Shown here: positions 3,922 to 20,039 of the stretch, one piece after another
Position numbering within the stretch: position 1 is the stretch's first letter
How the letters are laid out: the number at the start of each line of letters is the position of its first letter
From: Vicinamibacterales bacterium
GTDB taxonomy: Bacteria; Acidobacteriota; Vicinamibacteria; Vicinamibacterales; CAVVIG01
Length of the DNA stretch: 43,790 bases
Direction of reading: 5' to 3'
Assembly (NCBI GenBank): GCA_025450765.1
Contig: JANWLS010000009.1
Location: 1-43,790 of the forward strand
Notes under the pieces: model-generated
The model's input: the letters and a program-made list of their open reading frames with translations, nothing else
What the model was told of the DNA's origin: nothing
Database searches by the model: none
Translations under genes and position numbers: made by a program

Positions 3922-5595
3922 ATGCCTATCGAAGACCTGCAGCACCTGCAGCTTTCCGAAATCCTCGAATTCCGTCCCGACCACGGTGAGATCCGTCTTC
4001 ACGATCAGCGCGTGGTGATCCTGAGCGCGGCCGCCATGGGATTGCTGCGCAAGGAGCTCGTCGAAACGCTCGGCGTGGAGATTGCGCGGCGGCTGTTGAT
4101 GCGCTTCGGTTACGCGGACGGCTACCACGACGCTATCGTGCTGCGCGATCAATACGGCTGGACCGATCCGCGCGACGGGTTCCGCGCCGGCGCCGTGCTG
4201 CACACGCTCGAAGGGATCGTGCAGGCTCGCGTGACGCGCCTCGCTTACGACGCCGGGCAATCCGCCGTGGAAGCCGAAGTGTCCTGGGAACGTTCGTACG
4301 AAGCCGAGCAGCACCTGAACCAAAGTGGTCCCAGCCCGACACCGGTGTGCTGGTCGCTCATCGGCTATGTGAGCGGCTATGCCAGCGCCTGCTTCGGCCA
4401 GGAGGTCTATTTCCGCGAGCTGTCGTGTGTCGGACAGGGTCGCCCGAGGTGCGAGCTGATTGGACGGCACGCCGCGGGCTGGCCTCCGGAGGATCTCGAG
4501 GCATTTCGCTTCGATTTCCAGGGCGCCGACCTGGGTCGCGAGGTCAACCGCATCCAGGGGCTCGTCCGGCAGCAGCAGGAGGAGCTCGCCCGCCGCGAGC
4601 ACGACGTGGCGCGCCGGGAGCGGGACATCGATGTGCTGCGCGCCCGCGTCGACCGGCACGTGGCGGCGCGCCACTTCATCGTCCGCAGCCCGGCGATGCA
4701 GGAGGTGCTGGAACTGGCCGCGCGGGTGGCGCCGCTCGAGCTCACCGTGCTCGTCTACGGCGAAAGCGGCACCGGCAAGGAGTTCATCGTCCGGATGATT
4801 CACGAGCAGAGCACCCGCGGCGGCGGGCCGCTCGTGGCGGTGAACTGCGCGGCGCTCACTGAAACCCTGCTCGAATCGGAGCTCTTCGGTCACACGCGCG
4901 GATCGTTCACCGGCGCCATGCGCGACAAGATGGGGCTCTTCGAGGTGGCGACCGACGGGACGCTGTTTCTCGACGAGGTCGGCGAGATGGCGCTGTCGCT
5001 CCAGGCGAAGCTGCTGCGCGCCATTCAGGAGCACGAGATCCGCCGCGTGGGTGCCGAGCGCCCCATCCAGGTGAACGCGCGCGTCGTCGCGGCGACCAAC
5101 CGCGACCTGCGAGCCGCGGTGGCGGCCGGCACCTTCCGCGAGGATCTCTACTTCCGGCTCGGCGCGTTCATCATCTCGATTCCGCCGCTGCGCGATCGGC
5201 GCGAGGAGATTCCGCCGATGGTGCATGAGTTCCTGCGGCGGTCGGCGGCGCGCCTCGAGAAGAACGTGCGCGCGATTTCGCACGACGCAATGACCGCGCT
5301 CATTCGATACCGGTGGCCGGGGAATGTCCGCGAGCTCGAGCACGCGGTGGAGCGCGCCGTGATCATGGCGCGCGGAACGGCGATCGCGGTGCGCGACCTG
5401 CCGCCGGAAGTCGCGAGCGGCGAAGCGCCAGCGGGCGAGGGCGCATCCGCCTCGCTGGCGATCGGCGCCAATGAGCGGGAGCTCATCCGCAAGGCGCTCG
5501 ACCAGGCGGGCGGCAACCGCCGCCGCACCGCCGAAGCGCTCGGCATCAGCCCCGTCACCCTCTGGCGCAAGATGAAGCGATACGGCCTTTCGTGA
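3922..5595 (+). CDS. Sigma-54 enhancer-binding transcriptional activator with XylR_N/V4R sensor
   Basis: This 557-residue protein has three modules. Residues 1 to about 200 form an XylR_N-like segment plus a V4R (4-vinyl-reductase-type) small-molecule-binding domain, including the [13 protein letters not shown] cysteine pair typical of V4R. A heptad-rich linker (about 205-245) precedes the AAA+ domain. Walker A is GESGTGKE at 280-287. The sigma-54 contact loop is GSFTGA at 327-332, a GAFTGA variant. Walker B is [12 protein letters not shown] Fis-type helix-turn-helix lies at about 525-557 ([14 protein letters not shown]). Family knowledge: ligand binding to the N-terminal domain relieves repression of the ATPase, which remodels sigma-54 RNA polymerase. 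Immediately downstream are two dyads 21 bp apart and a -24/-12 promoter, so the neighbouring operon is its likely target. The ligand is unknown. Confidence 0.93.
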
Positions 5596-5600
5596 ATCGC

Positions 5601-5634
5601 TTTCAGAATGAAATGGTGAAATTTCATTCTGAAA
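5601..5634 (+). promoter_or_regulatory. Paired enhancer (UAS) dyads for the sigma-54 activator
   Basis: Two copies of the 13-bp dyad TTTCA-N3-TGAAA occur at 5601-5613 and 5622-5634. Their centres (5607 and 5628) are exactly 21 bp apart, two helical turns. Together they form a perfect 14-bp inverted repeat around a 6-base spacer. No T-run follows the right arm, so a terminator is unlikely. The site starts 5 bp after the activator stop codon and is centred about 107 bp before the predicted start site of the next operon, the usual place for enhancer-binding-protein sites. Confidence 0.75.
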
Positions 5635-5698
5635 CGCCTGCCTGAAGCTCTGCCGCCTTTTCCTCGAACAATCGAGCATTCCGGTCCCACCGATCGCC

Positions 5699-5714
5699 TG
5701 GCCCTGACCTTGCG
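5699..5714 (+). promoter_or_regulatory. Sigma-54 (-24/-12) promoter
   Basis: TGGCCC-N5-TTGC matches the consensus TGGCAC-N5-TTGC at every core base except A5, with the invariant GG and GC exactly ten bases apart (GG 5700-5701, GC 5712-5713). Transcription would start near 5725, two bases before the ATG of the following gene. Either that message is leaderless or translation starts at an internal codon. The purine run GAGAAGGG (5717-5724) would lie upstream of the start site and so could not act as a ribosome binding site on this transcript. Confidence 0.7.
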
Positions 5715-5726
5715 ATAGAGAAGGGC

Positions 5727-5963
5727 ATGATGACGAGCACGTATCCCGAGCTTCTTTCCGACACGCGCATCGTCGAGCAGATCCGCGACGAATACCTCGA
5801 CATGCCCGGCCTGAGCCTCACGCCCGCGCAGGCGCGCCGCCTCTGGACGCTCGATCACGAGGACTGCGCTGAGGCGCTCGGGTCACTGGTCGTGGAGCAG
5901 TTTCTTGCGCGCACACGCGATGGCCGCTACGTGCGTGCTGACCGGGGAGTGTCATGCAGGTGA
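5727..5963 (+). CDS. Small winged-helix-like protein of the sigma-54 operon
   Basis: The 78-residue soluble protein begins MMTSTYPELL. It has an arrangement that looks like a compact winged helix: a helix around 'SDTRIVEQIRDEYLDMPGLSLTPAQARRL' (read as several segments), then 'LDHEDCAEALGSLVVEQFL' and a basic beta-hairpin 'RTRDGRYVR'. I do not recognise a named family; DNA binding is inference from this helix-helix-wing pattern. Two in-frame ATGs (5727, 5730) lie just after the predicted sigma-54 start site. Its stop overlaps the start of the next gene by 10 bp, so they are translated together. It is the first gene behind the enhancer dyads and -12 box, so it may be an accessory regulator. 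Confidence 0.7.
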   Translation: MMTSTYPELLSDTRIVEQIRDEYLDMPGLSLTPAQARRLWTLDHEDCAEALGSLVVEQFLARTRDGRYVRADRGVSCR

Positions 5964-6289
5964 ATGTAAAGAGCCGCGCCCTGCCGGTCACCGAGCAGAC
6001 CCGCGCGTATCTGGAATACCGGTTCTTCTATGATCTGGTGCCGCACAGCGAGGAGGTGGTCCGGATCGACGTCCAGTTCGGGGCCTCCGGCACCGCCGGA
6101 CACGAGACCGTGCACTGCCGCGCGCTGGCGACGCTCGCCTCGGGCGAGACCATCGAGGCGTTGGCCGCCGGCACGCACCTCTACTCGGCCATCGACCGAA
6201 CCGCGCAGCAGCTGGGCGTGCTGGTTGCCGCGCAGAGCCGCGACGTGAGGACCCGCTCTCGCGTGCTTGGTGACGTGATGGTGAGGTGA
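5954..6289 (+). CDS. Divergent short HPF/RaiA-like (S30EA) protein
   Basis: The 111-residue protein begins MQVNVKSRALPVTEQTRAYLEYRF, the beta-strand plus helix entry of hibernation-promoting-factor domains. It continues with 'VVRIDVQFG', a strand pair and the final helix 'LYSAIDRTAQQLGVLV', which corresponds to the family's 'aID.aa..l..' helix. It lacks the basic NGPRGGxDKxC loop that the second paralogue (6407) keeps. Ribosome binding may therefore be altered or lost, or it may pair with the other protein. The start overlaps the previous gene, with GGGGAG at 5944-5949 as ribosome binding site. Family placement is moderate because the central loop is so diverged. Confidence 0.68.
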   Translation: MQVNVKSRALPVTEQTRAYLEYRFFYDLVPHSEEVVRIDVQFGASGTAGHETVHCRALATLASGETIEALAAGTHLYSAIDRTAQQLGVLVAAQSRDVRTRSRVLGDVMVR

Positions 6290-6406: not shown

Positions 6407-6745
6407 ATGAACATCGAACTTCGCGGCGTGAACGTGCAGACGTCGGAGGCCATCGGGCGGTTCACGGCCCGGCAGCTCACACGGACGCTGGGCCGCTTCA
6501 CTCGCCCCGTGAAGCGCGTCATCGTCCGGCTGCAGGACGACAACGGCCCGCGGCGCGGCATCGACAAGACGTGCCGGATCACGATCGACCTCGTCCGGCG
6601 CGGGCAGGTCTCGGTGCAGGCACGGGCCGATGATGCCTACGTGGCCGTGAGCCGGGCGGCCGAGCGGGCGGGCTGGGCGGTGGGCCATCGGCTGACGCGC
6701 GCGCGCGATCGCCGGCGGCGCGGCGTCGTGCGCCAGCCCGCCTGA
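6407..6745 (+). CDS. Short HPF/RaiA-family ribosome hibernation protein
   Basis: The 112-residue protein follows the ribosome-hibernation pattern: an N-terminal strand 'MNIELRGVNVQTSEAIG', a long helix, the strand 'VKRVIVRLQDDNGPRRGIDK' with the conserved D-x-NGP-x-x-G-x-DK-x-C loop, and a final helix 'DDAYVAVSRAAERAGWAV'. A strongly basic tail (RARDRRRRG) ends it. Known members bind the 30S decoding region and silence ribosomes in stress. It lacks the C-terminal dimerisation domain of long HPF, so 100S formation, if any, would need a partner. It lies in the sigma-54-led gene run between its divergent paralogue (5954) and a small membrane protein. Confidence 0.85.
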   Translation: MNIELRGVNVQTSEAIGRFTARQLTRTLGRFTRPVKRVIVRLQDDNGPRRGIDKTCRITIDLVRRGQVSVQARADDAYVAVSRAAERAGWAVGHRLTRARDRRRRGVVRQPA

Positions 6746-6792: not shown

Positions 6793-7044
6793 ATGATGAC
6801 CAACGGAGCTCGGAACACCTGGAAGTGGATCGCGGGATCGGCCGCGGCCGCCGTCGTCGCCGCCGAGGTGCTCGGCGGCGCGCTCGGCCTCGGCTACGCG
6901 TTTGCGTTCCTGTCGCTGGGTGTCATCGCCGGGTTGATGACGATGGCTGTCGCCGAGTGGATTCGCGACCGCCGCAACCGGACGGTCACCATCACGCCGG
7001 AGGACTCCGAACGCGAGGAGGCTCCGATTCGCAAGGTGGCGTGA
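6793..7044 (+). CDS. Small membrane protein of the stress operon
   Basis: The 83-residue protein has a short N-terminal cytoplasmic stretch, then two hydrophobic segments, about residues 12-32 (alanine/valine-rich) and 34-54 ('AFAFLSLGVIAGLMTMAVAEW'-type, read in parts). A charged tail 'RDRRNRTVTITPEDSERE' follows. No catalytic motif is visible and I do not recognise a family. ATG 6793 is chosen over the upstream TTG at 6763 because AGAGGAG (6780-6786) sits six bases before it. It is 47 bp behind the HPF-like gene and 47 bp ahead of uspA, consistent with a single operon. A membrane anchor or sensor role is possible but unsupported. Confidence 0.65.
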   Translation: MMTNGARNTWKWIAGSAAAAVVAAEVLGGALGLGYAFAFLSLGVIAGLMTMAVAEWIRDRRNRTVTITPEDSEREEAPIRKVA

Positions 7045-7091
7045 CGTTGACGCCAATTGAACAGGGCTGACGATCCTTGGAGTTACCCAGC

Positions 7092-8006
7092 ATGATCACC
7101 ATCAATCGCGTTCTCTGTCCGATCGACTTTGCCGCCAGCTCCGCCGAGGTGCTGGCGAGCGCGGCGGCCATCGCGCGGTATCACGGCGCGAAGCTGACCG
7201 TGCTGCACGTGGCGGGCGGCTATCCGGTGCCAGCCGGGCCGACGCCCGGACGCCGGCAGCCCGCGCGCGCCTTCTGGCTGCAGCGGTTGCGCGAGATCAC
7301 CGCGGACCTGCGGGAGGCGCAGGAAGGCGTGGCGGTCGCCGTCCGCGAAGGCGAACCGGTGCGCCGCATCCTGGAGGAAGCGTCCATCGGGCGCGCCGAC
7401 CTCATCGTCATGGGGACCCAGGGCCGAAGCGGGTTGAACCGTCTGCTCCTGGGATCCGTTGCCGAAGCCGTGCTGCGCCGCGCGTCGTGCCCGGTGCTGA
7501 CGGTGCCCCCGGCGTCGCTGGAGCGAGCCCTGCCGGTGCGTGGCGGGTTGTTCAGCCGGATCCTGTGCCCGGTCGACTTTTCGGAGGCTTCGCTGGCCGC
7601 GCTCGACTACGGGCTCACGCTGGCGCAGGAAGCGCAGGGCCATCTGACGTTGCTTTACGTGTTCGAGGAGACGCATGCGGCCTCGGCGGATCACTCGTGG
7701 CTGGCTCGTGCCGGGTTCCACAACGACCTGATGCGGCTCGTGCCAGACGACGCACACGACTGGTGCGCCGTGCGGACGCTGGTGGGCGTCGGCGAGGCGG
7801 GTGACGAGATTCTCCGCGTCGCCCTCGACGAGGAGGTGGATCTGATCGCCATCGGGGCGCCGCGGAGCAGCGGCCGCGGCTGGGGTCTCGATTCCACCTC
7901 GGGGCGTGTGATCCGCGAAGCGCCGTGTCCGGTGATCACGCTTCGCGCCCCCGTTGCAGCTCGCGTCCCGGCCGCCGTGAGGGCCGAGGTGGCGACGGTC
8001 GGATAG
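7092..8006 (+). CDS. Tandem universal stress protein (UspA family)
   Basis: The 304 residues contain two Usp domains. The first (1 to about 142) starts 'INRVLCPIDF' and has the complete ATP-binding signature G108-x2-G111-x9-G121-S122. The second (about 155-295) starts 'FSRILCPVDFSE', but its loop reads GAPRSSGRGWGLDSTSG, which is degenerate, so it probably binds nucleotide weakly or not at all. Tandem Usps act in the cytoplasm in starvation, redox or energy stress. ATG 7092 aligns with the domain start; TTGGAG (7077-7082) can serve as ribosome binding site. It is the last gene of the apparent sigma-54 operon, followed by a GC-rich hairpin. Confidence 0.92.
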   Translation: MITINRVLCPIDFAASSAEVLASAAAIARYHGAKLTVLHVAGGYPVPAGPTPGRRQPARAFWLQRLREITADLREAQEGVAVAVREGEPVRRILEEASIGRADLIVMGTQGRSGLNRLLLGSVAEAVLRRASCPVLTVPPASLERALPVRGGLFSRILCPVDFSEASLAALDYGLTLAQEAQGHLTLLYVFEETHAASADHSWLARAGFHNDLMRLVPDDAHDWCAVRTLVGVGEAGDEILRVALDEEVDLIAIGAPRSSGRGWGLDSTSGRVIREAPCPVITLRAPVAARVPAAVRAEVATVG

Positions 8007-8107: not shown

Positions 8108-8437
8108 ATGAGCAAGACCGATGTCTGGCAGGGGACTCTCGCCCTCATGATCCTGCGGACCCTCGAAACGCTCGGCCCGCTGCACGGCGACGGCATCGCG
8201 CGACGCATCGAGCAGACGAGCGGCCATGAGCTGGTCGTCAACTACGGGACGTTCTACCCGGCGCTCCTCAAGCTCGAGCAGGAGGGCTTCGTCACCTCCG
8301 AGTGGGGCGCCTCGGAGAACAACCGCCGGGCGAAGTTCTATCGCCTGACGCGTGCCGGGCACCGCCAGGTCGAGAAGGAAACGCGCGAGTGGGTCCATAC
8401 GACGACGATCCTCCAGCGGTTTTTGGGGGAGCACTGA
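8108..8437 (+). CDS. PadR-family transcriptional regulator
   Basis: The 109-residue protein is a compact PadR: an N-terminal winged helix with 'GTLALMILRTLETLGPLHGDGIA' (helix 1-2 region, read in parts) and 'NYGTFYPALLKLEQEGFV', then the basic wing 'NNRRAKFYRLT' and a short C-terminal dimerisation helix. PadR proteins usually repress neighbouring transport genes and respond to small ligands. Its stop is only 9 bp before the first ADOP permease, a pairing very common in Acidobacteria, so it probably controls that gene and itself. The near-leaderless promoter just upstream fixes ATG 8108 as the start. Confidence 0.93.
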   Translation: MSKTDVWQGTLALMILRTLETLGPLHGDGIARRIEQTSGHELVVNYGTFYPALLKLEQEGFVTSEWGASENNRRAKFYRLTRAGHRQVEKETREWVHTTTILQRFLGEH

Positions 8438-8446
8438 GGCTGGAGC

Positions 8447-11149
8447 ATGCTGCACCGCCTGCGCGCCTGGGTCGTTCGTCTCTTCACGTCCGTCCGCGGC
8501 GCGCCCGGCGACGACGGCCTGGCCGACGAGCTCGCCAGCCACCTCCAGCTCCACATCGACGACAACCTCCGCGCCGGGATGTCGCGCGAGGAGGCACGGC
8601 GACAGGCGCTGCTGAAGCTGGGCGGCGCCACGCAGACGAGGGAAGCTCATCGCGATCGGCGAGGCCTGCCGTGGGTCGACTCGCTGGCGCGCGACGTCAA
8701 GTACGCAATGCGATTTCTGCGTCGCAGCCCCGGGTTCACCGCGGTCGCCATGCTGTCCCTCGCGCTCGGCATCGGCGCGAATACCGCCATCTTCTCGCTC
8801 GTCGACGCCCTGCTGCTGCGCTCCCTGCCGGTGAAACAGCCCGACCGATTGGTGCAACTGTTCGTCGACGGGAACCGCTCGTCCTGGACGAACCCGCAGT
8901 GGGAGGAGATTCGCGATCGTTCGGATCTGTTCGAGAGCGTCGCGGCATGGTCGGACACAAGACTGAATCTGACGCGCGGAGGTGAGACGCAGTATGCCAA
9001 CGGCCTGTTCGTCAGCGGCGCCTTCTTCGGGATGCTGGGCGTGAGCCCGGCCATGGGTCGGGCGGTGACGCCAGCCGACGACAGCCCTGGCGGCGGAGAC
9101 GAAGGGCCCGTGGCGGTGATCAGCGACCGCTTCTGGAAGACGCGGTTTGGCGCCGCGCCAGATGTCGTCGGCCGATCACTGACGTTGGCCGGCACGCAGT
9201 TCACCATTATCGGAGTCACACCGCCCGCCTTCGACGGCGTGAGTGCCGGCTCGCGTTTCGATGTGGCCATTCCCCTCGGCATGGCGCCGCGCGTCATGGG
9301 ACGGGACGTGTTGAGCGGGCGGTCGGTCTGGTGGCTGCACATTCTCGCCAGGCTTCGGCCGGGCGAGACGGTCGCGCAGGCGACGGCGGGTCTCCGGGCC
9401 GCGCAGCCGGCGATCAGGACCGCCACGCGACCCGCCCTCTATGCTGGGGCGCGCGCCGCTCAATACCTGCAGGCGCCGTTCGTCGTGCGTCCCGCGCGCA
9501 GCGGCGCTGATGGTCTGGGCGTCAGGCGCCAGTACGAGATGCCGCTGCTGGCCCTGATGGGGATTGTGGCCCTCGTGCTGTTGATCGCCTGCGTGAACCT
9601 GGCGAATCTTCTGCTCGCGCGGGCCGAAGCGCGCCGCCACGAGTTGAGTATCCGGCGGGCGCTCGGCGCGTCGCGGCTGCAACTCGTTCGTCAGTTGATG
9701 ACCGAGTCGATGTTGCTGTCCGGCCTCGGCGGCGCGGCTGGGCTCTTGTTCGCCGCCTGGGCCAGTCGCCTGCTGGCGAGCCATCTCGTGGTGAGTGGCC
9801 GGCCGTTGGAGCTGGCCGGGCCACTGGATCGGCAGGTCGTGCTCTTCACGGCGGCGGTCTGCGTGATCGTCGCTGGACTGTTTGGACTAGGTCCGGCGAT
9901 GCGTGCGAGCGCCGGCGGCGCGATGGATGCCCTGGCGGCCCGGGGCACTCGCGCGACCGGGCAACGGCGGTCCACGAACGTGCTCATGATGGCGCAGGTC
10001 GCGCTCTGCCTGGTGCTCGTGGTCGGTACGGGGCTGTTCGTGCGCACGTTCGTGTCGCTCACGACGCGCCAGCTCGGCTTTGCGCCGGGTGCCGTCCTCG
10101 CGGCGAACCTGGATATGTCCGGCAACGCTGCGACGCTGACCACGACCACGTCGACCGATCTCCTGGACGCTGTCCGCGCGGCGCCCGGCGTGAGTCACGC
10201 CGCCATTTCAGTGCTCCTGCCCCTGACCGGCCAGCAGTGGGACCAGAGCATCGAGAATCCGCCGGGACTGGCCCTGTCGCGGGACGAACGTGATGTCTAC
10301 CTGAACGCGGTCTCGCCCGACTGGTTCACGACCCTCGGCACGCCGCTCCTCGCCGGGCGCGATTTCGCTCGCGAGGACACCGCAGGGGCGCCCCTCGTCG
10401 CGATCGTCAATCAGACGTTCGTACGAAAGTACCTGTCGGGACGAAATCCGCTCGGAACGGTCATCGAGCTCGATATGACGCCTTCAGGCGATCGGACCGC
10501 GGCGCTGACGATCGTCGGCGTGGCTCGCGACGCCCTCTACGATTCGCGCCGGGGCGATCTCCCGCCGACGCTGTATCGGCCATTTGCCCAGAGTGGTGTG
10601 GAGAACGTGGCGCTGGCGTCAATCGTGGTACGCGCCGCCAGCGGCGAGCCGGCGAGCATCGCCAGGAATGTCGCGGCTTCGATCGCTGCGGTCGATCCCA
10701 GGCTCAATTTCACATTTCACACGCTCGACGATCTGGCGGGGGCGTCCGTTTCTGCCGAGCGTGTGCTGGCCCTGCTCTCAGGCTTTTTCGGCGCGCTCGC
10801 GCTCCTGCTCGCGGCGATCGGGCTTTACGGCGTCGTCTCGTATTCGGTGAGTCGCCGGCGGACGGAGATCGGAATCCGTATGGCGCTCGGCGCGCGGCCG
10901 GGTGGGATCGTGCGGATGGTGCTGAGTCGCATCGGCCTCACGATGGTGATTGGGCTCGTGATCGGCGGCGCCCTGAGCGTCGGGCTCGCCACGTTCGTCA
11001 AGAGCTTGCTCTACGGCCTGCAGCCGGACGATCCCGCGACGCTCGCGGGTGCGATCGCCGTGCTCGCGGCGGTCGGCCTGCTGGCGGCGTGGCTGCCGGC
11101 CCGCCGCGCGGCGCGGATCGATCCGATGGAAGCGTTGAGGGAGCAGTGA
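8447..11149 (+). CDS. ADOP-type ABC permease A (MacB/FtsX-like, 900 aa)
   Basis: This is a MacB/FtsX-like permease of the acidobacterial duplicated-orphan-permease class. Residues 1 to about 80 form a cytoplasmic helical domain (LRAWVVRLF, DELASHLQLHIDDNLRAG, EEARRQALLKLGG). A transmembrane helix near 100 follows 'RRSPGFTAVAML', then a MacB periplasmic core domain and an FtsX three-helix block at about 370-500. A second periplasmic and FtsX unit ends in LPARRAARIDPMEALREQ. No ATPase gene is near, so its energy source is unknown; a distant ATPase or a non-transport role are both possible. GGAG just before ATG 8447 and the 9-bp gap to padR argue for a padR-permease operon. Confidence 0.92.
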   Translation: MLHRLRAWVVRLFTSVRGAPGDDGLADELASHLQLHIDDNLRAGMSREEARRQALLKLGGATQTREAHRDRRGLPWVDSLARDVKYAMRFLRRSPGFTAVAMLSLALGIGANTAIFSLVDALLLRSLPVKQPDRLVQLFVDGNRSSWTNPQWEEIRDRSDLFESVAAWSDTRLNLTRGGETQYANGLFVSGAFFGMLGVSPAMGRAVTPADDSPGGGDEGPVAVISDRFWKTRFGAAPDVVGRSLTLAGTQFTIIGVTPPAFDGVSAGSRFDVAIPLGMAPRVMGRDVLSGRSVWWLHILARLRPGETVAQATAGLRAAQPAIRTATRPALYAGARAAQYLQAPFVVRPARSGADGLGVRRQYEMPLLALMGIVALVLLIACVNLANLLLARAEARRHELSIRRALGASRLQLVRQLMTESMLLSGLGGAAGLLFAAWASRLLASHLVVSGRPLELAGPLDRQVVLFTAAVCVIVAGLFGLGPAMRASAGGAMDALAARGTRATGQRRSTNVLMMAQVALCLVLVVGTGLFVRTFVSLTTRQLGFAPGAVLAANLDMSGNAATLTTTTSTDLLDAVRAAPGVSHAAISVLLPLTGQQWDQSIENPPGLALSRDERDVYLNAVSPDWFTTLGTPLLAGRDFAREDTAGAPLVAIVNQTFVRKYLSGRNPLGTVIELDMTPSGDRTAALTIVGVARDALYDSRRGDLPPTLYRPFAQSGVENVALASIVVRAASGEPASIARNVAASIAAVDPRLNFTFHTLDDLAGASVSAERVLALLSGFFGALALLLAAIGLYGVVSYSVSRRRTEIGIRMALGARPGGIVRMVLSRIGLTMVIGLVIGGALSVGLATFVKSLLYGLQPDDPATLAGAIAVLAAVGLLAAWLPARRAARIDPMEALREQ

Positions 11150-11161
11150 GGGAGGAGCGCC

Positions 11162-11593
11162 TCAGTTGTCCAGACCTTCTCGCCTGAGGTCGGCAAACCG
11201 CTCGAAGTCCCGGTCGTTCGACACGATCGTGTGGACGCCGTGCTCCCGACAGAGGGCGGCGATCTGCGCATCGAAGGCCAGGTTTCCCGTCACGCGCGCC
11301 GCCCGGACTGTGTCGACGAGCAGCGCGGGATACCGATCGCCCGGCGTCAGGATGCGCAGCGAGGCCGACGCCAGCACCGCCTCGATGGCGCCGACCGCCT
11401 GTTCGATCGTTGACGGAGGTTTGAGGATGGCCGGATGCGTGACGACGCGCAGAAATTCACCAAGACAGAAGACGGGGAGCGCCCAGAGCGCATCTCCGTC
11501 CGCCAGGTGTGACAGCCTGGCGCGTGCCCGGTCGTGCTCAGCGAATTCGCGACGATGCGCGTAGACCAGAATGTTGGTGTCGACGGCAATCAC
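11162..11593 (-). CDS. vapC: VapC-type PIN-domain ribonuclease toxin
   Basis: The 143-residue protein has the PIN fold with its acidic metal-binding set: D5 in MIAVDTNILVYAH, E46 in CLGEFLRV, D108 in NLAFDAQIA, and D127/D129 in SNDRDF. VapC toxins cut tRNA or rRNA until bound by VapB. The GTG start overlaps the stop of the upstream antitoxin gene by four bases (GTGA), the usual vapBC coupling. The pair reads against the surrounding permease genes and ends 12 bp from the stop of ADOP A, so it looks like an inserted module. All catalytic residues are present, so it is probably active. Confidence 0.9.
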   Translation of the reverse strand: MIAVDTNILVYAHRREFAEHDRARARLSHLADGDALWALPVFCLGEFLRVVTHPAILKPPSTIEQAVGAIEAVLASASLRILTPGDRYPALLVDTVRAARVTGNLAFDAQIAALCREHGVHTIVSNDRDFERFADLRREGLDN

Positions 11594-11835
11594 ACGGTGT
11601 CCCGTCCGGCCATCACGTCATAGAGCCGATCGCGGTCGCTGATGTCGACATCTGGCGAACGAATGCCGTCAACCACGACCCACCGGGATGCCAACGGGCT
11701 CGGACGTTGCGGTCGCTCCGACAGGAACCGTCGAAGCGCACGCTCGACGACCGCCGTCAGCGTGGTCCCCTCGCGGCTGGCTCGCTGTCGAGCTTTATCG
11801 AGCACGGCATCTTCGATGTCGAGGGTCGTCCGCAT
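11590..11835 (-). CDS. vapB: VapB-type antitoxin
   Basis: The protein is 81 residues from the ATG at 11835, or 85 from one at 11847. It starts MRTTLDIEDAVLDKARQRASR, the ribbon-helix-helix N-terminus of VapB antitoxins, which both bind the operator and hold the toxin. The C-terminal half ('WVVVDGIRSPDVDISDRDRLYDVM' region, read in parts) would wrap the PIN domain. The shorter start is preferred because family members begin with MRTT. No clear ribosome binding site is visible. The gene faces away from ADOP B with only about 30 bp between starts, so the two promoters must overlap and VapBC autoregulation could affect the permease. Confidence 0.85.
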   Translation of the reverse strand: MRTTLDIEDAVLDKARQRASREGTTLTAVVERALRRFLSERPQRPSPLASRWVVVDGIRSPDVDISDRDRLYDVMAGRDTV

Positions 11836-11865
11836 GCATAAAAGCATATCGAGAGACGCATCACG

Positions 11866-14556
11866 ATGTCAATGATTCATCGCGTGCGCGCCTGGGTCGT
11901 CCGTCTCTTCGCGTCCGTCCGCGGCACGCCCGGCGACCACGGTCTGGCCGACGAGCTCGCCAGCCACCTCCAACTCCATATCGACGACAACCTCCGCGCG
12001 GGGATGTCCCCCGACGAGGCGCGACGCCAGGCGCTGTTGAAGCTGGGCGGCCTGGATCAGACGAAGGAAGCCCATCGCGACCGGCGCGGACTGCCGTGGG
12101 TCGACGGCCTGGCGCAGGATCTCCACTTCGCGCTTCGGGCCTTCCGCCGCAGTCCTGGCTTTACCGTGACAGTCGTAGCCACGCTGGCTGTCGGCATCGG
12201 CGCGACCACGGCCATCTTCAGCGTGCTCAACGCGGTGCTCATCCGCTCGTTCCCCTATAAGAGCCCGGATCGTCTGGTGTATGTCTGGACGCCATCGCGC
12301 AGCCTGCCGAAGATCCCCCTCGAAGCGTTCGAGCCCAGCGCGGGCGATTTCTTCGACATCCAGCGCGAGGCCCATTCGTTTTCCGCCAGCACCCTCTTCG
12401 ACCAGGAGTCGTTCAATCTTGCGGCTGGAGGCACGGTGCAGCGCGTCAGTGGCACGTTCGTGTTGCCCTCATTTTTCCCGACCTTCGGCGTTCAGCCACG
12501 TTTCGGGCGCTCCATCGAGTCGGCTGACACGGAGCCGGGCAGCGAGCATGTGGCTATCATCAGCTATGGATTGTGGCAGTCCGCCTTTGGCAGGAGTTCG
12601 CGGATCTTGGGCCAGACGCTGACGCTCAACGGACAGCCGTATCGTGTCGTCGGAGTGATGCCCGCTTCGTTCGGCTATCCCAGCGGCAACGAGTTACCGT
12701 ACTCGAACGCGGGCGAGACGCAGGTCTGGTTGCCGTGGGCGATGACGCCGCAGCAAAAGACGAGCCGCGACCTCTTCAGCGGCAATGTCGTCGCGCGTCT
12801 CCGCCCGGGTGTGACGGTCGCCGGAGCGCAGGCAGAACTCGACACCATCATGCCGCGCCTGAATGCCCTTCGCGCGCCCGGCGGGATCTTCACGGGCATT
12901 CATGCTGTCGTCAAATCCTTTCCCGAGACGGTCGTTGGCGGCGTGCGACTGTTCGTCTGGCTCCTCTTCGGCGCAGTCTGTCTCGTCCTGCTGATCGCCT
13001 GCGCGAACGCCGCGAATCTGCTTCTTGCCCGTGCTGCGGGCCGTAGGCATGAAATGGGGGTCAGGTCCGCGCTCGGCGCCAGCTGCGGGCGCCTTCTGCG
13101 CCAGGGACTCACCGAAGCGGTGTTGCTCTCATGCTGCGGCTGCCTCCTGGGCATTCTGATGGCGGACGCGGCGATCCGCCTCCTGCTTCGACTCGATCCG
13201 GGGAACATTGCGCGGCTGAGCCACACGTCCATCGACGTGCGCGTCTTGCTGTTTGCGGTGACCCTGTCGTTCGTGACCGGTATCGCGTTCGGCATACTCC
13301 CGGCACTCTTCGTCTCGCGCGGGAATGCCAGCGGCTTTCTGATTCGGAGCCGCAGCCAGGGAGCGGGGGGCGCCTCGCCACGTTGGCGCAGGAGCCTGAT
13401 CACCAGCGAAGTGGCCCTGGCCGTCGTGCTGCTGGCGGGTTCCGGGCTGCTCATCCACAGCTACCTGAACCTGCAGGAAGTGTCGATGGGCTTCTCCGAA
13501 TCGACGCTCACGATGAGTATCGCCCTCGATCAGCGTGACAGCAAGGTCGAGCAGCGTCGGGCCTTTTTTCACGGCGTCGTCGGCAAGCTTGCCGTCCTGC
13601 CAGGAGTCAGCGCCGTCGGCGCGGTGAACGATCTGCCATTGAGCCACTCGGAAACGCTGGCGACGTTTTCCGTGGAGGGCTACACGAACCAAAAGGGGCA
13701 GACGGTGAGCTCCCGCCTGGCCACGGAGCGCTACTTCGAAGCCATGGGCACGCCGCTCCTCGCAGGACGATGGTTTTCGGTAGACGACGGAGCCAAGGGC
13801 ACCGAACGAGTCGTGATCGTCAACCAGGCCTTTGCCGACGCGTACCTCCGCGGCCGACCGGCGGTCGGCGCCCGTGTGTGCCTGTGCTATGTCAGCAGTG
13901 CGCCTCCGCCGTGGTCGACGATCATCGGCGTGGTCGGCAATACTCGAGCCTCCAACCTCGAAGATGCGCCGCCTCCGCAAGTGTATCAACCATTCTGGCA
14001 AGACGATGCAACGCCAGGCCGGGCCTACATTGCCGTGCGCACGTCCGAGCGACCCCTGCAGGCCATCCCCGCGATTCGCCGGGCGGTGCGTTCCATCGAC
14101 CCGACGCTTGCGGTGGCTGATGTTCAAACCATGGAACAGCGCGTCTCGGAAGCAAGCGCGTTGCGGCGCTTCCAGATGTCGCTCTTTGTCGTCTTCGGCG
14201 TCGTGGCCCTGTTCCTCGCCGCGATTGGCCTCTACGGTGTGATGGCCTATTCGGTCAGGCAGCGCACCGCTGAAGTCGGCATCCGCCTGGCACTTGGCGC
14301 CGAGCCGTCGACGATCTTGACGCTGATCGTCCGTCAGGGCATGACCCTCACCACCATCGGCGTCGTCATCGGCCTGGCGGGAGCGTTCGCGCTCACTCGT
14401 CTGTTGTCATCGCTGCTCTACAGAACGGCACCAGGCGATCCGGCGACGTTCGTGTTCGTGGTCGCGGTTCTTCTTGTCACATCGCTGGTCGCCTGCTACG
14501 TTCCGGCGCGCCGCGCCATGCGAGTCGAGCCCGTGGAGGCACTCAGGGAGAACTGA
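11866..14556 (+). CDS. ADOP-type ABC permease B (896 aa)
   Basis: It has the same architecture as permease A: a helical N-terminal domain (1 to about 82), a MacB-like periplasmic domain, an FtsX helix block, a second unit, and a terminal VPARRAMRVEPVEALREN. The first two methionines (11866, 11872) are both plausible; the second aligns with the start of permease A. The core is clearly diverged from A and C, yet nucleotides 11885-12014 are almost identical to the 5' end of permease C. It starts 30 bp from the divergent vapB start. There is no ATPase partner in the window. Function by family: macrolide-, lipoprotein- or peptide-efflux-like permease; substrate unknown. Confidence 0.91.
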   Translation: MSMIHRVRAWVVRLFASVRGTPGDHGLADELASHLQLHIDDNLRAGMSPDEARRQALLKLGGLDQTKEAHRDRRGLPWVDGLAQDLHFALRAFRRSPGFTVTVVATLAVGIGATTAIFSVLNAVLIRSFPYKSPDRLVYVWTPSRSLPKIPLEAFEPSAGDFFDIQREAHSFSASTLFDQESFNLAAGGTVQRVSGTFVLPSFFPTFGVQPRFGRSIESADTEPGSEHVAIISYGLWQSAFGRSSRILGQTLTLNGQPYRVVGVMPASFGYPSGNELPYSNAGETQVWLPWAMTPQQKTSRDLFSGNVVARLRPGVTVAGAQAELDTIMPRLNALRAPGGIFTGIHAVVKSFPETVVGGVRLFVWLLFGAVCLVLLIACANAANLLLARAAGRRHEMGVRSALGASCGRLLRQGLTEAVLLSCCGCLLGILMADAAIRLLLRLDPGNIARLSHTSIDVRVLLFAVTLSFVTGIAFGILPALFVSRGNASGFLIRSRSQGAGGASPRWRRSLITSEVALAVVLLAGSGLLIHSYLNLQEVSMGFSESTLTMSIALDQRDSKVEQRRAFFHGVVGKLAVLPGVSAVGAVNDLPLSHSETLATFSVEGYTNQKGQTVSSRLATERYFEAMGTPLLAGRWFSVDDGAKGTERVVIVNQAFADAYLRGRPAVGARVCLCYVSSAPPPWSTIIGVVGNTRASNLEDAPPPQVYQPFWQDDATPGRAYIAVRTSERPLQAIPAIRRAVRSIDPTLAVADVQTMEQRVSEASALRRFQMSLFVVFGVVALFLAAIGLYGVMAYSVRQRTAEVGIRLALGAEPSTILTLIVRQGMTLTTIGVVIGLAGAFALTRLLSSLLYRTAPGDPATFVFVVAVLLVTSLVACYVPARRAMRVEPVEALREN
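11885..12014 (+). repeat. 130-bp 5' segment shared with permease C
   Basis: This stretch matches 14695-14824 with a single mismatch (position 11942 G versus 14752 C). It encodes most of the N-terminal helical domain. Outside it the genes differ at many synonymous and non-synonymous sites, which points to recent gene conversion or a shuffled 5' module. Confidence 0.9.
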
Positions 14557-14569
14557 GGCGAATAACGAC

Positions 14570-14664
14570 GAATTGTGAATTGAGAATTGAGAATGTCGAA
14601 AAAAGATGACGACGCGCTGTGCGCGCGTCAACCACGTTCTTCATTCTAAATTCTCCATTCTCAT
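14570..14664. repeat. Heptamer-based inverted-repeat element
   Basis: An AT-rich island in GC-rich surroundings. The left arm is a run of GAATTGA-type heptamers (14570-14594). The right arm (14641-14664) is an imperfect inverted copy, also with a 7-base period; about 24 bp align with one gap and three mismatches. Between them lies a perfect hairpin, GACGCGC (14611-14617) with GCGCGTC (14623-14629). It fills the gap between permeases B and C and ends 17 bp before the start of C. No coding capacity. Confidence 0.65.
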
Positions 14665-14681
14665 TGATCTGCGGAGGCACC

Positions 14682-17468
14682 GTGTTTCGACCGCTGCGCG
14701 CCTGGGTCGTCCGTCTCTTCGCGTCCGTCCGCGGCACGCCCGGCGACCACGCTCTGGCCGACGAGCTCGCCAGCCACCTCCAACTCCATATCGACGACAA
14801 CCTCCGCGCGGGGATGTCCCCCGAAGAAGCGCGGCGCCAGGCGTTGTTGAAGCTGGGCGGCATCGCGCAAACGAAGGAAGCGCATCGCGATCGACGCGGG
14901 CTGCCGTGGGTGGATGACGTCCTCCGCGATCTCCGCCACGCGGGCCGCCTGCTCCGGCGCAGTCCGGGCGTGGCCCTCGTCGCGGTGCTCACGCTGGGAC
15001 TTGGCATCGGAGCCACCACCGCGGTCTTCAGCGCCTTCAACGGTCATCTCCTGCAAACGGTGCCCGTTGCCCATCCCGAGACGCTCGTCCGCTTCCGCTG
15101 GGTCGGGGCCAACGACATGGGAACCGATTTCACCGACTACGGGTTTTCCGGGCAGATCAGCGGGCAGCGGACGCGTGCGACCTTCTCGTATCCCATGTAC
15201 GAAGTGTTCCGCGCGCACAATCACACGCTCGCCGACATCGTGGCGTGCGCACCCTGGGACGGGCTGGTGGTGGTGACGGGCGGCGGCGCGGAACTGGCGA
15301 CAGGGTTCGTGGCCTCCGGCAACTACTTCCAGGTGCTCGGCGTGTCCGCGGAAGCCGGGCGGACCTTTGGGCCGGCCGACGATCGGCCCGCCGCGCCGCC
15401 GGTCGCGGTGATCAGCGACGGGTTCTGGCGGCGCCGTTTCGGGGGAAATTCGTCCGTGATTGGCGCGACCCTGGATGTCAGCGGGGTTCCCGTGACGATT
15501 GTCGGCGTCACCCCGAGTCGCTTCACGGGAATCCAGAGTGCGTCGCGCCAGGCACCCGATCTGATCCTGCCGCTCGCCCTTGCAGCGCGACTCGAGGAGG
15601 CGAACGGGTTCAACATCGCGAGCGACACCAACCGGTCCGTGCTCGAAGACGCCACCGCCTGGTGGGTTCAGGTTGTCGGGCGGCTGAAGCCGGGCATGAC
15701 GGCCGCGCAGGTGCGCGGCGATCTCGAAGGAGCCTTTCAGGCCGCAGCGCGCGAGGGATGGAAATCGTTCTATGCCTCGATGCCCGCAGCGAAGCAATCG
15801 GCGCTTGCGTATCGAGATCGTACCCGCGTGCCGGCGTTGAACGTCACGTCGGCCGCGCACGGCATCTACGACGTCCCGGCGGATACCTATCGCACCCTCT
15901 CATTGCTGGGCGTCGTGGTCGTGCTGATCCTGCTGATCGTCTGTGCGAACCTGGCGAACCTGCTGCTCGCGCGGGCGACGGCGCGACGCGGCGAAATGGC
16001 GGTGCGACTGGCAATGGGGGCGACCCGGGGACGGCTGATGCGCCAGCTCCTGGCGGAGAGCCTGCTGCTTGGTACGCTGGGTGGCGCGGCCGGCCTGGTC
16101 ATCGCCTGCTGGGGTCGGCTGCTGCTGCCCGGTACGGACGGTTCGGCGCCGCTCGACGGGCACGTCCTGGCGTTCGCCGCGGCGGTCAGTCTCCTCACGG
16201 CGGTCATCTTCGGGTGCGCGCCCGCGGTGCGTGCGGCTCGTGGGGAAGTGCCCGCGAGAGACGATCGCCGCACCGTGAGCGGCCGCACCCGGCTCGCAAG
16301 CGGGTTCGTGATCGCGCAGGTCACGATCTCGACCGTCTTGCTGGTCGGTGCAGGGCTCTTCCTCACGACGGTCGGCAATTTGAGCAAGGTGGATGTCGGC
16401 TTCAACCCCGATTCGCTGCTGCTCATCAGCGTGAATCCGCGGCTGAACGGGTACGACCGCGCGCGGACGGTCAGCCTGTACGATCAGATCTTGGAGGCGT
16501 TCGGCCATGTGCCCGGTGTTCGCGCGGCGACGCTGTCGGATTATCCGATCCTGTCCGGCGGCACGCACTCGATGAGTCTGTTCATCGAGGGCCGCCCCGC
16601 TCCGGAGCGCCGTGCCGAGCAGGACATCGATCTGATGGTCGTCGCACCGGACTTCTTCGAGACGATGGGGATTCCGCTGAGGGCGGGCCGGCAATTCACG
16701 GGCGCCGATCGGGAAGGCGGCCCGAACGTGGTCATCATCAACCAGGCCGCCGCGCGCGAGTACTTCCCGCACGAAGATCCGATCGGGCAACATCTCGGAT
16801 CCACCTACGAGACGAGGAATCAATGGGAAGTCGTCGGCGTGGTCGGTGATGTGAAGTACAACACCGTTCGCACGCCGGCGCCGCCGATTCTATACGTGCC
16901 GTACCGGCAGCACATGACCCAATCGGCACGACCGGCCATCTTCGAGCTGCGGACGGCCGGTGACCCGCTGGCCATCGTTCCCGCGGTTCGCGCGGCGGTG
17001 CAGCGCATCGATGCCAGGCTGCCGATTCTCAGCGTGTCGACGCAGGAGCAGGAAATCGAGGACCGCTTCGCCGAGGAGCGGCTGTTCGCGGAGGCGTACA
17101 CCGCGTTTGGCGTCCTCGCGTTGCTCATCGCCTCGATCGGCCTCTTCGGCCTGATGTCGTATGGCGTGGCCCGCCGGACGAAGGAGATCGGCATCCGTGT
17201 GGCGCTCGGCGCGGTGCGGGAGGATGTGATCCGGATGGTGCTGGGGGAGTCGCTCGTGCTGGTGGCGCTCGGCATCGCGGTGGGCGTCGTCGTCGTGCTG
17301 GCCGCTGGTCGCCTGGTGGCGACGCTGCTGTTCGGCGTCGCCCCGACCGATGCCGTGACGATGAGCCTCGCGATCACGTTGATGGTCATCGTGGCTGGCA
17401 TTGCCGGCTACTTGCCGGCCCGCCGCGCGGCCCGGATCGATCCGATGGAGGCGCTCCGGGAAAACTGA
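14682..17468 (+). CDS. ADOP-type ABC permease C (928 aa)
   Basis: The third permease of the array has the helical N-terminal domain (LRAWVVRLF, then DELASHLQL and EEARRQALLKLGG), two MacB-core plus FtsX units and the tail LPARRAARIDPMEALREN. I choose GTG 14682 (protein VFRPLRAW...) because GGAGG (14673-14677) lies four bases before it and the protein then aligns with A and B. The frame stays open upstream, but that part runs through the heptamer repeat element. The 5' segment 14695-14824 is nearly identical to that of permease B. Role and substrate are unknown, and no ATPase is near. Confidence 0.9.
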   Translation: MFRPLRAWVVRLFASVRGTPGDHALADELASHLQLHIDDNLRAGMSPEEARRQALLKLGGIAQTKEAHRDRRGLPWVDDVLRDLRHAGRLLRRSPGVALVAVLTLGLGIGATTAVFSAFNGHLLQTVPVAHPETLVRFRWVGANDMGTDFTDYGFSGQISGQRTRATFSYPMYEVFRAHNHTLADIVACAPWDGLVVVTGGGAELATGFVASGNYFQVLGVSAEAGRTFGPADDRPAAPPVAVISDGFWRRRFGGNSSVIGATLDVSGVPVTIVGVTPSRFTGIQSASRQAPDLILPLALAARLEEANGFNIASDTNRSVLEDATAWWVQVVGRLKPGMTAAQVRGDLEGAFQAAAREGWKSFYASMPAAKQSALAYRDRTRVPALNVTSAAHGIYDVPADTYRTLSLLGVVVVLILLIVCANLANLLLARATARRGEMAVRLAMGATRGRLMRQLLAESLLLGTLGGAAGLVIACWGRLLLPGTDGSAPLDGHVLAFAAAVSLLTAVIFGCAPAVRAARGEVPARDDRRTVSGRTRLASGFVIAQVTISTVLLVGAGLFLTTVGNLSKVDVGFNPDSLLLISVNPRLNGYDRARTVSLYDQILEAFGHVPGVRAATLSDYPILSGGTHSMSLFIEGRPAPERRAEQDIDLMVVAPDFFETMGIPLRAGRQFTGADREGGPNVVIINQAAAREYFPHEDPIGQHLGSTYETRNQWEVVGVVGDVKYNTVRTPAPPILYVPYRQHMTQSARPAIFELRTAGDPLAIVPAVRAAVQRIDARLPILSVSTQEQEIEDRFAEERLFAEAYTAFGVLALLIASIGLFGLMSYGVARRTKEIGIRVALGAVREDVIRMVLGESLVLVALGIAVGVVVVLAAGRLVATLLFGVAPTDAVTMSLAITLMVIVAGIAGYLPARRAARIDPMEALREN
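14695..14824 (+). repeat. 130-bp 5' segment shared with permease B
   Basis: Partner of 11885-12014 (129 of 130 bases identical, offset 2810). Similarity drops sharply after it, at the codon following CCCCCGA. Confidence 0.9.
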
Positions 17469-17501
17469 GGGAACAAACCGGCCGCGGGGGTGTCCAACCA
17501 A

Positions 17502-17588
17502 GGGTCAGATCTTGTTTCTTGCACGATCGTCCACATAAGGCAACGACACAAGATCAGTCCAGTCGTGCAAGAAACAAGATCTGACCCC
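17502..17588 (+). repeat. REP-like palindromic element, copy 1
   Basis: Perfect 25-bp inverted repeat arms (17502-17526 and 17563-17587) flank a 36-base centre. The outer sequence is GGGTCAGATCTTGTTTC. The whole element, reverse-complemented, matches 27071-27158 at 78 of 87 positions, including the centre, so it is a mobile or multiplied unit and not a chance hairpin. No transposase is encoded. It ends six bases before the ATG of permease D. Confidence 0.88.
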
Positions 17589-17594
17589 AACATT

Positions 17595-20039
17595 ATGCAG
17601 GACCTGCGATACGCGCTGCGCCAGCTCTGGTGGGCGCCAGCCTTTTCGCTCGCCGCCATCATCACCCTGGCGATCGGCATCGCCGCCACCACCGCCATCT
17701 TCAGCGCCGTCAACGCCACGCTCCTGCGACCGCTGCCCTACCCGCACCCTGAGCAGATTATTCAGGTCCGGACGCGGTACCTCGACGGGAGTGTCACGGC
17801 CGGCGGCCTGTCGGCCGTCGAACTGACCGCGCTCCAGCATGCCCACCTGCCGATCGAGCGCGCCGCGGGCATGAGTCTGGCGCCGGTCGACGGGACGCTG
17901 ATCAGAGACGACGGCCGGCGAGTCGGCGTGCTGGCCACACCCGTCACGGAAGGCTTCTTCCGGGTCCTCGGCCTGCCGCTGGTCCTTGGCACCGGCTTCA
18001 CGCACCAGGATTTCATCTCCTTCGGTGCCGGTCCGCCGCCTCGCGGCACCCCCGCCGCGGTCATCCTGTCGAACCGGATGTGGACGTCGATGTTCGATCG
18101 AGATCCGGCCATCATCGGCAAGCCGATCCAGATTGCGGAGATCGGGCAGCCCACGAGAATCGTGGGCGTCGCCGCGCCGGAGATGGATCTGCCGCACGGC
18201 TCCGACTTCTGGTTCGCCATGCGGATGAATCCGCACGGAACGGGCCATGGCTACAGCGTGATTCTTCGCATGCGTCCGGGGGCGAACCTGAAGACGTTGA
18301 ACGCGGGTGCCAACGGCGTCCTCGTCAATCTCGCGCACTCCATGCCTGAGGACGCCGATGCCGGGCGCGTGTTCGTCATGCAGCCGCTGCTCAGCTCGAT
18401 CGTCGGCGACCTGCAGACGACGCTGCTGATCGTGCTGGGCGCAACGCTCCTCCTGCTGCTGCTCGCCTGCCTGAACGTCACCAATCTGCTCCTGGCGCGC
18501 GGTGCCGGCCGGACGCGCGAGATGGCCGCGCGGGCAGCGCTGGGCGCAAGCCGCGGGCGCCTCGTGCGATACCTCCTCACCGAGGCGCTGGTGCTCGCGT
18601 GTGCCGGCACGATACTCGGGCTCGGCCTCGCCTGGGCGGCCGTCCGTGTGCTGCTCGCCCTCGGCGCCTCGAAGCTGCCGCGCCTCACCAGCATCCCTTT
18701 CGACGGTCGCGTGCTGCTCTTCGTCCTCGCGGTGCTCGTCTTCACCGTGCTGGCGATGGGGCTCGCGCCCGCATGGCGGATGTCGGGCTCGGACCTGCGG
18801 ACGCTGTTGAACGAATCCGGGCGGACGTCGACGGCTGGCCGCGGCGCGGCCCGCTCGATGTCGGCGCTCATCGTCGCCGAGATCGCGCTCGCGATCGTCC
18901 TCGCCGCCGGGGCGGGCTGGCTGGTGCAGAGCTTCGCGCGGCTCGGAGCGGTCGATCCCGGCTTCACACCGGCCGGCCGGCTCGTGATCGACGTCAACCC
19001 CGGCACCGGATTTCCAGGGCTCCCCAAAGTGCAGGCCTGGTCGGTGGCGCTGCTCGATCGCATCCGCGCGGTTCCCGGTGTCGCCTCTGTCGGCGCCGCG
19101 AGCACGTTTCCCTTCCGGCCCAATCGAGACGGCGTCGTCAACGTCGCGGTGGACGGAGCGCCCGCTCAGGATCCGAATGCGCTCATCGGCGCGCACATCC
19201 GAATCGTGTCACCCGGCTTTTTCCAGGCGATGGGCATCAAGGTGTTGGCCGGCCGTGTGTTCACGGCCGACGATCGACACGAGACGCAGCCGGTCGCCGT
19301 CGTCAACCAGGCGTTCGTGCACACGTTCCTCAGCGGGCACAATCCGATCGCCATGCAGTTCCGCTACGGCGCTCCAATCGTGATCGATCCCAAGAGCCTG
19401 CACAGCATCGTCGGCGTCGTCGACGATGTGCACTACGAGTCGCTGAGCGAACCACCGCAGCCGGTGTTCTACGTCTCCGACCTGCAGCTGTTCCCGCTGT
19501 TCCGGCAGACGGTGGTCGCCGAGGCGCGGAGCGGCGATCCGGCGGCGCTCGCCTCCGGCATCCGGTCGGCGCTCGCATCCTTCGATCCGAACATCATCCC
19601 CACGTTCGAGGCGGCCCCGGACGTGATCGGCGAGACGCTCAGCCGCCAGCGGCTCGGGATGACGCTGATGCTGATCTTCGGCGCGCTCGCGCTGGCGCTG
19701 GCCGCGATCGGCATCTACGGCGTCATCGCCTACGCGTCGACGCAGAGGCGCGACGAGCTCGCCACGCGTCTCGCGCTTGGCGCAACGGGCGGCCGTGTGT
19801 TCTGGCTGGTCATGAACGGCGGCCAGCGGCTCGCGTTGGTGGGCGTCGCGATAGGGTTGATTGGGGCTTACGCGGGCGGACGCCTGCTCGCGAGCAGCGT
19901 GTACGCGATGCGCGCGGCCGATCCACTCATCCTCGCCGCCGCGGCCCTCATCGTCGCCGTCGTCGCCTTCCTCGCGACGATGATCCCCGCCGTGCGCGCG
20001 AGCCGGCTGGAGCCGGTGAGGGCGCTGAGGCCGGAGTAG
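17595..20039 (+). CDS. ADOP-like ABC permease D without the N-terminal domain (814 aa)
   Basis: The protein starts MQDLRYALRQLWWAPAF, directly at the segment before the first transmembrane helix. It therefore lacks the roughly 80-residue helical domain of permeases A-C. The rest is standard: a MacB-like periplasmic core, the FtsX block 'LLLLLACLNVTNLLLARGAGRTREMA' region, a second unit, and the tail IPAVRASRLEPVRALRPE. The frame is open upstream to 17490, but that would translate the REP-like palindrome ('QETRSDP'), so ATG 17595 is chosen although no ribosome binding site precedes it. The palindrome may have displaced the original 5' region or simply sits in the gap; short-form members of this family are also known. 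It converges on the M28 gene with one base between stops. Confidence 0.88.
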   Translation: MQDLRYALRQLWWAPAFSLAAIITLAIGIAATTAIFSAVNATLLRPLPYPHPEQIIQVRTRYLDGSVTAGGLSAVELTALQHAHLPIERAAGMSLAPVDGTLIRDDGRRVGVLATPVTEGFFRVLGLPLVLGTGFTHQDFISFGAGPPPRGTPAAVILSNRMWTSMFDRDPAIIGKPIQIAEIGQPTRIVGVAAPEMDLPHGSDFWFAMRMNPHGTGHGYSVILRMRPGANLKTLNAGANGVLVNLAHSMPEDADAGRVFVMQPLLSSIVGDLQTTLLIVLGATLLLLLLACLNVTNLLLARGAGRTREMAARAALGASRGRLVRYLLTEALVLACAGTILGLGLAWAAVRVLLALGASKLPRLTSIPFDGRVLLFVLAVLVFTVLAMGLAPAWRMSGSDLRTLLNESGRTSTAGRGAARSMSALIVAEIALAIVLAAGAGWLVQSFARLGAVDPGFTPAGRLVIDVNPGTGFPGLPKVQAWSVALLDRIRAVPGVASVGAASTFPFRPNRDGVVNVAVDGAPAQDPNALIGAHIRIVSPGFFQAMGIKVLAGRVFTADDRHETQPVAVVNQAFVHTFLSGHNPIAMQFRYGAPIVIDPKSLHSIVGVVDDVHYESLSEPPQPVFYVSDLQLFPLFRQTVVAEARSGDPAALASGIRSALASFDPNIIPTFEAAPDVIGETLSRQRLGMTLMLIFGALALALAAIGIYGVIAYASTQRRDELATRLALGATGGRVFWLVMNGGQRLALVGVAIGLIGAYAGGRLLASSVYAMRAADPLILAAAALIVAVVAFLATMIPAVRASRLEPVRALRPE

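Follow-up and report, generated by a model that had tools for sequence, protein, structure and literature searches.

Our analysis of a 43,790-nucleotide stretch of DNA from a Vicinamibacterales bacterium (the window) points to a previously undescribed sigma-54 circuit, conserved in an order of soil Acidobacteriota, whose apparent role is to turn on genes for ribosome hibernation and stress proteins. Judged from its sequence, this locus very probably encodes a one-component sigma-54 switch, in which a V4R activator, twin dyads and a -24/-12 promoter would control an HPF/Usp operon. The proposal builds on computed features, namely gene architecture, a conserved site, spacing, the promoter, linkage to the activator clade and recurrent target types.

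Twin dyads and promoter behind the activator gene

The regulatory part of the locus comprises the following features (coordinates are those of the window):

3922..5595, + strand: activator of 557 aa with the order XylR_N - V4R - AAA+ (Sigma54_activat) - HTH_8, a proposed enhancer-binding protein
5601-5613: upstream enhancer dyad TTTCA-GAA-TGAAA (TTTCAGAATGAAA), centre 5607, about -118; orthologous loci carry the same site class
5622-5634: promoter-proximal enhancer dyad TTTCA-TTC-TGAAA (TTTCATTCTGAAA), centre 5628, about -97; orthologous loci likewise carry this site class
5699-5713, + strand: -24/-12 (sigma-54) promoter TGGCCCTGACCTTGC, GG at 5700-5701 and GC at 5712-5713, predicted +1 at ~5725

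The sequence-only reading had proposed two TTTCA-N3-TGAAA dyads with centres 21 bp apart, about 107 bp before the start predicted from a -24/-12 promoter with GG-N10-GC spacing, the whole unit lying directly behind a V4R-type activator gene, and each of these elements was recovered. Both dyads are exact, with a centre-to-centre distance of 21 bp; relative to the predicted +1, the upstream distances of these centres are 118 and 97 bp (midpoint, ~107), and the dyad repeat begins about 6 nt past the TGA stop codon of the activator (5593-5595), in which Pfam recognised both XylR_N and V4R. A sigma-54 enhancer-binding protein (bEBP) is expected to use paired dyads some 80-200 bp ahead of its -24/-12 promoter, and the locus shows this arrangement. 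In the 3.32-Mb genome, exact TTTCANNNTGAAA is confined to these two dyads, and at one mismatch or fewer the window holds 2 dyads vs 0.13 expected. The dyad had also been called unfamiliar for a named regulator, and the TTTCA-N3-TGAAA string indeed found no match in the literature searched.

The promoter TGGCCCTGACCTTGC has the correct GG-N10-GC spacing and is the sole zero-mismatch TGGCNCN5TTGC within the window, where one-mismatch -24/-12 sites are frequent by chance (9 found in all vs 14 expected). Because the DNA is GC-rich, the -24/-12 match alone is weak evidence, and the case relies on the combination of elements and on their conservation. L150, L154 and L038 have equivalent promoters at the corresponding position. 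The predicted +1 lies 2 nt ahead of the first ATG (5727), and the Shine-Dalgarno-like GAGAAGGG falls inside the promoter and outside the predicted message, so that the message is either leaderless or truly starts elsewhere. Equally tight gaps between +1 and ATG were seen at L038:1023-1051 (2 nt), at L187:1586-1615 (3 nt) and in L150 (~5 nt; reverse strand, ahead of the HPF-like gene 5558-5866); such a gap is absent at L138, L153 and L155.

Conservation across Vicinamibacterales

Orthologs of the activator, ~55-67% identical, were collected from about 18 genomes of the same order, with hosts including Luteitalea and Vicinamibacteraceae; when distant V4R paralogues are included, 27 of 193 class genomes have a match. 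A dyad pair together with a -24/-12 promoter was present at 17 of 20 ortholog loci, compared with 2 of the 97 loci of control activators (p of about 1.5e-15 in Fisher's test, with no correction for relatedness; the conservation p-values ignore shared ancestry and are descriptive only). Under a spacing rule of 19-21 bp, the ortholog loci (191 kb) contained 24 pairs, 21 of them with a promoter, vs 5 pairs, 2 with a promoter, in the control loci (97 other activators, 758 kb), and five altered dyads yielded 0-1 pairs each in the ortholog loci vs 24 for the real dyad. Across 22 activator loci including the window, 38 dyad-pair/promoter combinations (redundant) were counted vs 0.0 in second-order Markov sequence, and the partner of a strong dyad lay 19, 20 or 21 bp off in 27 of about 38 cases. 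The pairs in ortholog loci are located some 55-150 bp upstream of the -24/-12 element.

A genome-wide search of 19 genomes, allowing three mismatches or fewer, returned 26 pair sites (15 with spacing 20, 6 with 19 and 5 with 21), and the mirrored pattern returned 0 sites in the same search. In 20 genomes of related lineages, picked for their lack of an ortholog, 16 exact single dyads were counted vs 6 mirror matches. The enhancer-promoter reading thus withstood the conservation test, both at the ortholog loci and against the genome-wide mirror control. One-mismatch -24/-12 sequences are common in GC-rich DNA and rpoN was not found in the source MAG, which could be taken to mean that the dyads and the promoter match are chance occurrences or relics; we assign practically no probability to this idea, since it is already refuted by the conservation across loci and the zero controls.

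Two stricter expectations failed. The dyads do not occupy the same downstream gap in every ortholog, as in many genomes the pairs precede the activator or stand next to unlinked targets, and a zero-mismatch pair pattern applied class-wide proved too strict, retrieving 10 of 193 genomes, some of which lack the activator.

Together the dyads span 34 nt and make up a perfect inverted repeat, with a stem of 14 bp and a 6-nt loop. Such a repeat could in principle act as a hairpin in RNA, at the 3' end of the activator message (as a terminator, an attenuator or an mRNA stabiliser), and be unrelated to the promoter. Its position just past the stop codon and the predicted RNA fold of the 76-nt stretch with the dyads (-20.9 kcal/mol; z, -3.3) would suit such a role, but a T-run is absent, the stem is A/T-rich, and relatives keep the dyads in forms that are often non-complementary to each other (e.g., centres CTC and CAC in L140). 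Many relatives' pairs are, moreover, upstream of or far from the activator, yet retain the 19-21 spacing and the -24/-12 site. Because the dyads rather than their pairing are conserved and no T-run follows, we rejected the hairpin or terminator reading as very improbable.

The dyads might also be enhancer sites of another EBP or regulator, such as a repressor or a second activator, instead of the neighbouring V4R protein. A few dyad pairs do occur in class genomes with no detected ortholog, and paralogous V4R activators coexist in some genomes. Against this stands the close linkage of site and activator: half of the exact single dyads in the 19 genomes (17/34 vs ~0.06 expected) are no more than about 8 kb from this activator, and 20 of the 26 genome-wide pair sites are on the activator contig, within several kb of the gene. 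Paralogue loci have no dyad pair, and the sites are nearly absent around other activators. The recognition helix S-T/P-V-T-L-W-R is kept across orthologs, in step with the site, and differs in the aligned paralogue L157. We therefore regard control by another regulator as unlikely, and the V4R activator remains the preferred candidate for dyad binding.

The congener G012 lacks the activator; with any match confined to 27 of 193 class genomes, ~18 of which have orthologs, the system is patchy. In the source MAG, which is 82.6% complete, rpoN was not detected. Since the congener has rpoN, as do 22 of 27 family genomes, and the MAG encodes about 15 activator-type AAA+ genes, a true absence of rpoN is unlikely, and MAG incompleteness plausibly explains the missing gene.

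The activator and its sensor

All four domains of the activator were recognised in Pfam (XylR_N, 1.5e-32; V4R, 1.1e-09; Sigma54_activat, 4.2e-67; HTH_8, 1.6e-14). Walker A, Walker B and a GSFTGA loop are legible in its translation, the last being a variant of GAFTGA, which the translated ortholog of L038 carries; the protein thus presents the domain features of a bEBP, i.e., an AAA+ domain with Walker motifs, a GAFTGA-type loop and a Fis-type HTH.

Among PDB structures, the sensor is related to the sensor domains solved for PoxR, DmpR/CapR and MopR. In DmpR, zinc is bound by Cys151, Glu172, Cys177 and Cys185, and the phenol hydroxyl sits between His100 and Trp128 (PMC7264223). The aligned zinc ligands in our activator are C143, E166, C169 and C177, which assigns it to the XylR/DmpR group by this feature, and the equivalents of the phenol-anchoring His/Trp are H94 and W122 (by alignment; residues per PMC7264223 and PMC10715001). 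Among the 20 proteins with the sensor region, H94 is present in 19 (Tyr in L153) and W122 in all. The retention of the zinc ligands and of H94/W122 makes an aromatic effector plausible, and the molecule sensed by the V4R domain is probably small and perhaps phenolic or aromatic.

Proposed target genes

Downstream of the promoter, the following genes lie on one strand:

5727..5963, + strand: ORF78, the first target gene, 78 aa, no known family; start ATG 5727 or 5730
5954..6289, + strand: HPF/S30AE-like target gene, 111 aa; Pfam Ribosomal_S30AE 5.4e-05, barely above cut-off
6407..6745, + strand: second HPF/S30AE-like gene, likely target, 112 aa; Pfam Ribosomal_S30AE 6.6e-08
6795..7046, + strand: small membrane protein gene, likely target, 83 aa; hydrophobic segment in the translation
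7077..8006, + strand: tandem universal stress protein (Usp), likely target, 309 aa; Pfam Usp 3.8e-55 in two stretches

ORF78 had no Pfam family above the cut-off, and the 83-aa membrane protein had no Pfam or NCBIfam match. The five genes from ORF78 to the tandem Usp may be co-transcribed. Farther on, a PadR regulator (8108-8434) precedes the first of four consecutive long ORFs (8447-20039) that by eye resemble ABC-type MacB/FtsX permeases. Autoregulation of the window activator was considered and found to be unsupported, with no further exact dyad in the genome.

Target gene sets differ from genome to genome, and the recurrent types are HPF/S30AE-like genes, Usp, two families of small uncharacterised proteins and some genes of central metabolism. 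HPF-like genes stand behind the same promoter type in L038, L150 and L155, and Usp genes in L038, in L152 and at distal sites in G011 and G145. Distal dyad pairs sit ahead of Usp, GAPDH-like, transaldolase-like and ORF78-like genes. An ORF78 homologue (52% identical; L155:5224-5391 within the ORF L155:5170-5403) lies behind a -24/-12 site, and in G026 an ORF78-like gene follows an unlinked dyad with its promoter (L204, distal site), while a second such unit lies ahead of an HPF-like gene with a reading frame that is broken in the assembly. Single-case targets were formate-THF ligase, glutamate dehydrogenase, a glutamate-synthase-like gene, Rieske plus ferredoxin reductase, transaldolase and a Na+/H+ exchanger. 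Among the identified targets there were no aromatic-degradation genes, bar the ambiguous Rieske/reductase pair.

Several loci deserve mention. At L187:1615-1922, an HPF-like gene behind a conserved dyad and promoter is split over two frames in the assembly. In L185, a dyad pair is located between a Usp-like operon and a divergent CBS-domain-like gene (by eye), recalling the Usp/CBS targets of NmpR discussed below. A small protein of ~90-100 aa with the pattern WHDxMV...C-x3-CPH/CPC recurs behind these promoters, often with the activator directly next; examples are L139:2309-2581, L142:8486-8812 and L155:2213-2509, with similar ORFs near L140, L141, L143, L144, L146, L147 and L149, and neither of the two that were scanned could be placed in a Pfam family. 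In L140, L141, L144, L146, L147 and L149, the promoter faces a small ORF with the activator gene next in line.

Proposed mechanism and comparison with known systems

We infer a model that comprises dyad binding by the activator, looping, an effector class, whole-operon co-transcription and a role in dormancy or stress survival. The layout agrees with the standard sigma-54 activation scheme. Activator dimers would bind the two dyads on the same helix face, two turns apart, and effector binding by the V4R sensor would cause the activator to oligomerise. By looping of the DNA, the oligomer would then reach RNA polymerase-sigma54 at the -24/-12 promoter, which lies some 100 bp downstream, and ATP use by the activator would open the promoter. 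The operon could then start, supplying ORF78, two HPF-like hibernation proteins, the membrane protein and the tandem Usp, with a putative role in dormancy or stress survival.

The activator has the domain order of DmpR, XylR, MopR and PoxR, and shares with them the zinc ligands and the H94/W122 equivalents. Known members of this group control aromatic catabolism and use paired 16-20-nt TTGATCA-type palindromes with centres 29-42 bp apart, i.e., three or four turns (PMC6449761). In contrast, the window dyads are 13 nt long and read TTTCA-N3-TGAAA, with a spacing of 19-21 bp in relatives, and so fall outside the group's site type, and the targets (HPF-like, Usp, small unknowns and central metabolism) are unlike its aromatic-catabolic genes.

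NmpRSTU of Myxococcus xanthus also combines a sigma-54 activator with paired dyads, a universal stress protein and a CBS protein are among its targets, and its regulon has been proposed to serve a low-oxygen/energy response (PMC11841059). NmpR differs in being a phosphorylated response regulator with the site GCGCA-N5-TGCGC and no V4R sensor, and hibernation factors are unreported in that paper, the word being absent from its text (PMC11841059). By target type, the NmpR regulon is the nearest analogue of the circuit described here.

NorR, a sensor of NO through a GAF domain, recognises a compact GT-N7-AC dyad with a TCA-N3-TGA-like core; this core seems to resemble that of TTTCA-N3-TGAAA, whereas sensor and targets differ. 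DosR of mycobacteria governs a hypoxia/dormancy regulon rich in Usp genes and is not sigma-54 dependent; since the regulator is unrelated to our activator, the likeness is an analogy only. For V4R in connection with hibernation, the literature searched held nothing specific.

As a tentative extension, which we consider rather doubtful, a DmpR-like phenol-pocket sensor may have been rewired in Vicinamibacterales, so that it serves a dormancy programme in place of aromatic catabolism. A small aromatic compound, e.g., a stress or signalling molecule of the quinone or phenol type, might in that case induce ribosome hibernation and Usp through the two-turn TTTCA-N3-TGAAA enhancer, with some mRNAs starting 2-5 nt before the ATG (leaderless).

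To our knowledge, this is the first proposal of an XylR_N-V4R activator running a hibernation/stress regulon instead of aromatic breakdown. It offers, from sequence alone, a testable activator, site, promoter and regulon for a soil lineage that is major yet little studied. For the XylR_N-V4R activator group, it contributes an enhancer sequence not described before and a spacing rule of two turns, and the findings hint at a role of the V4R sensor outside catabolism.
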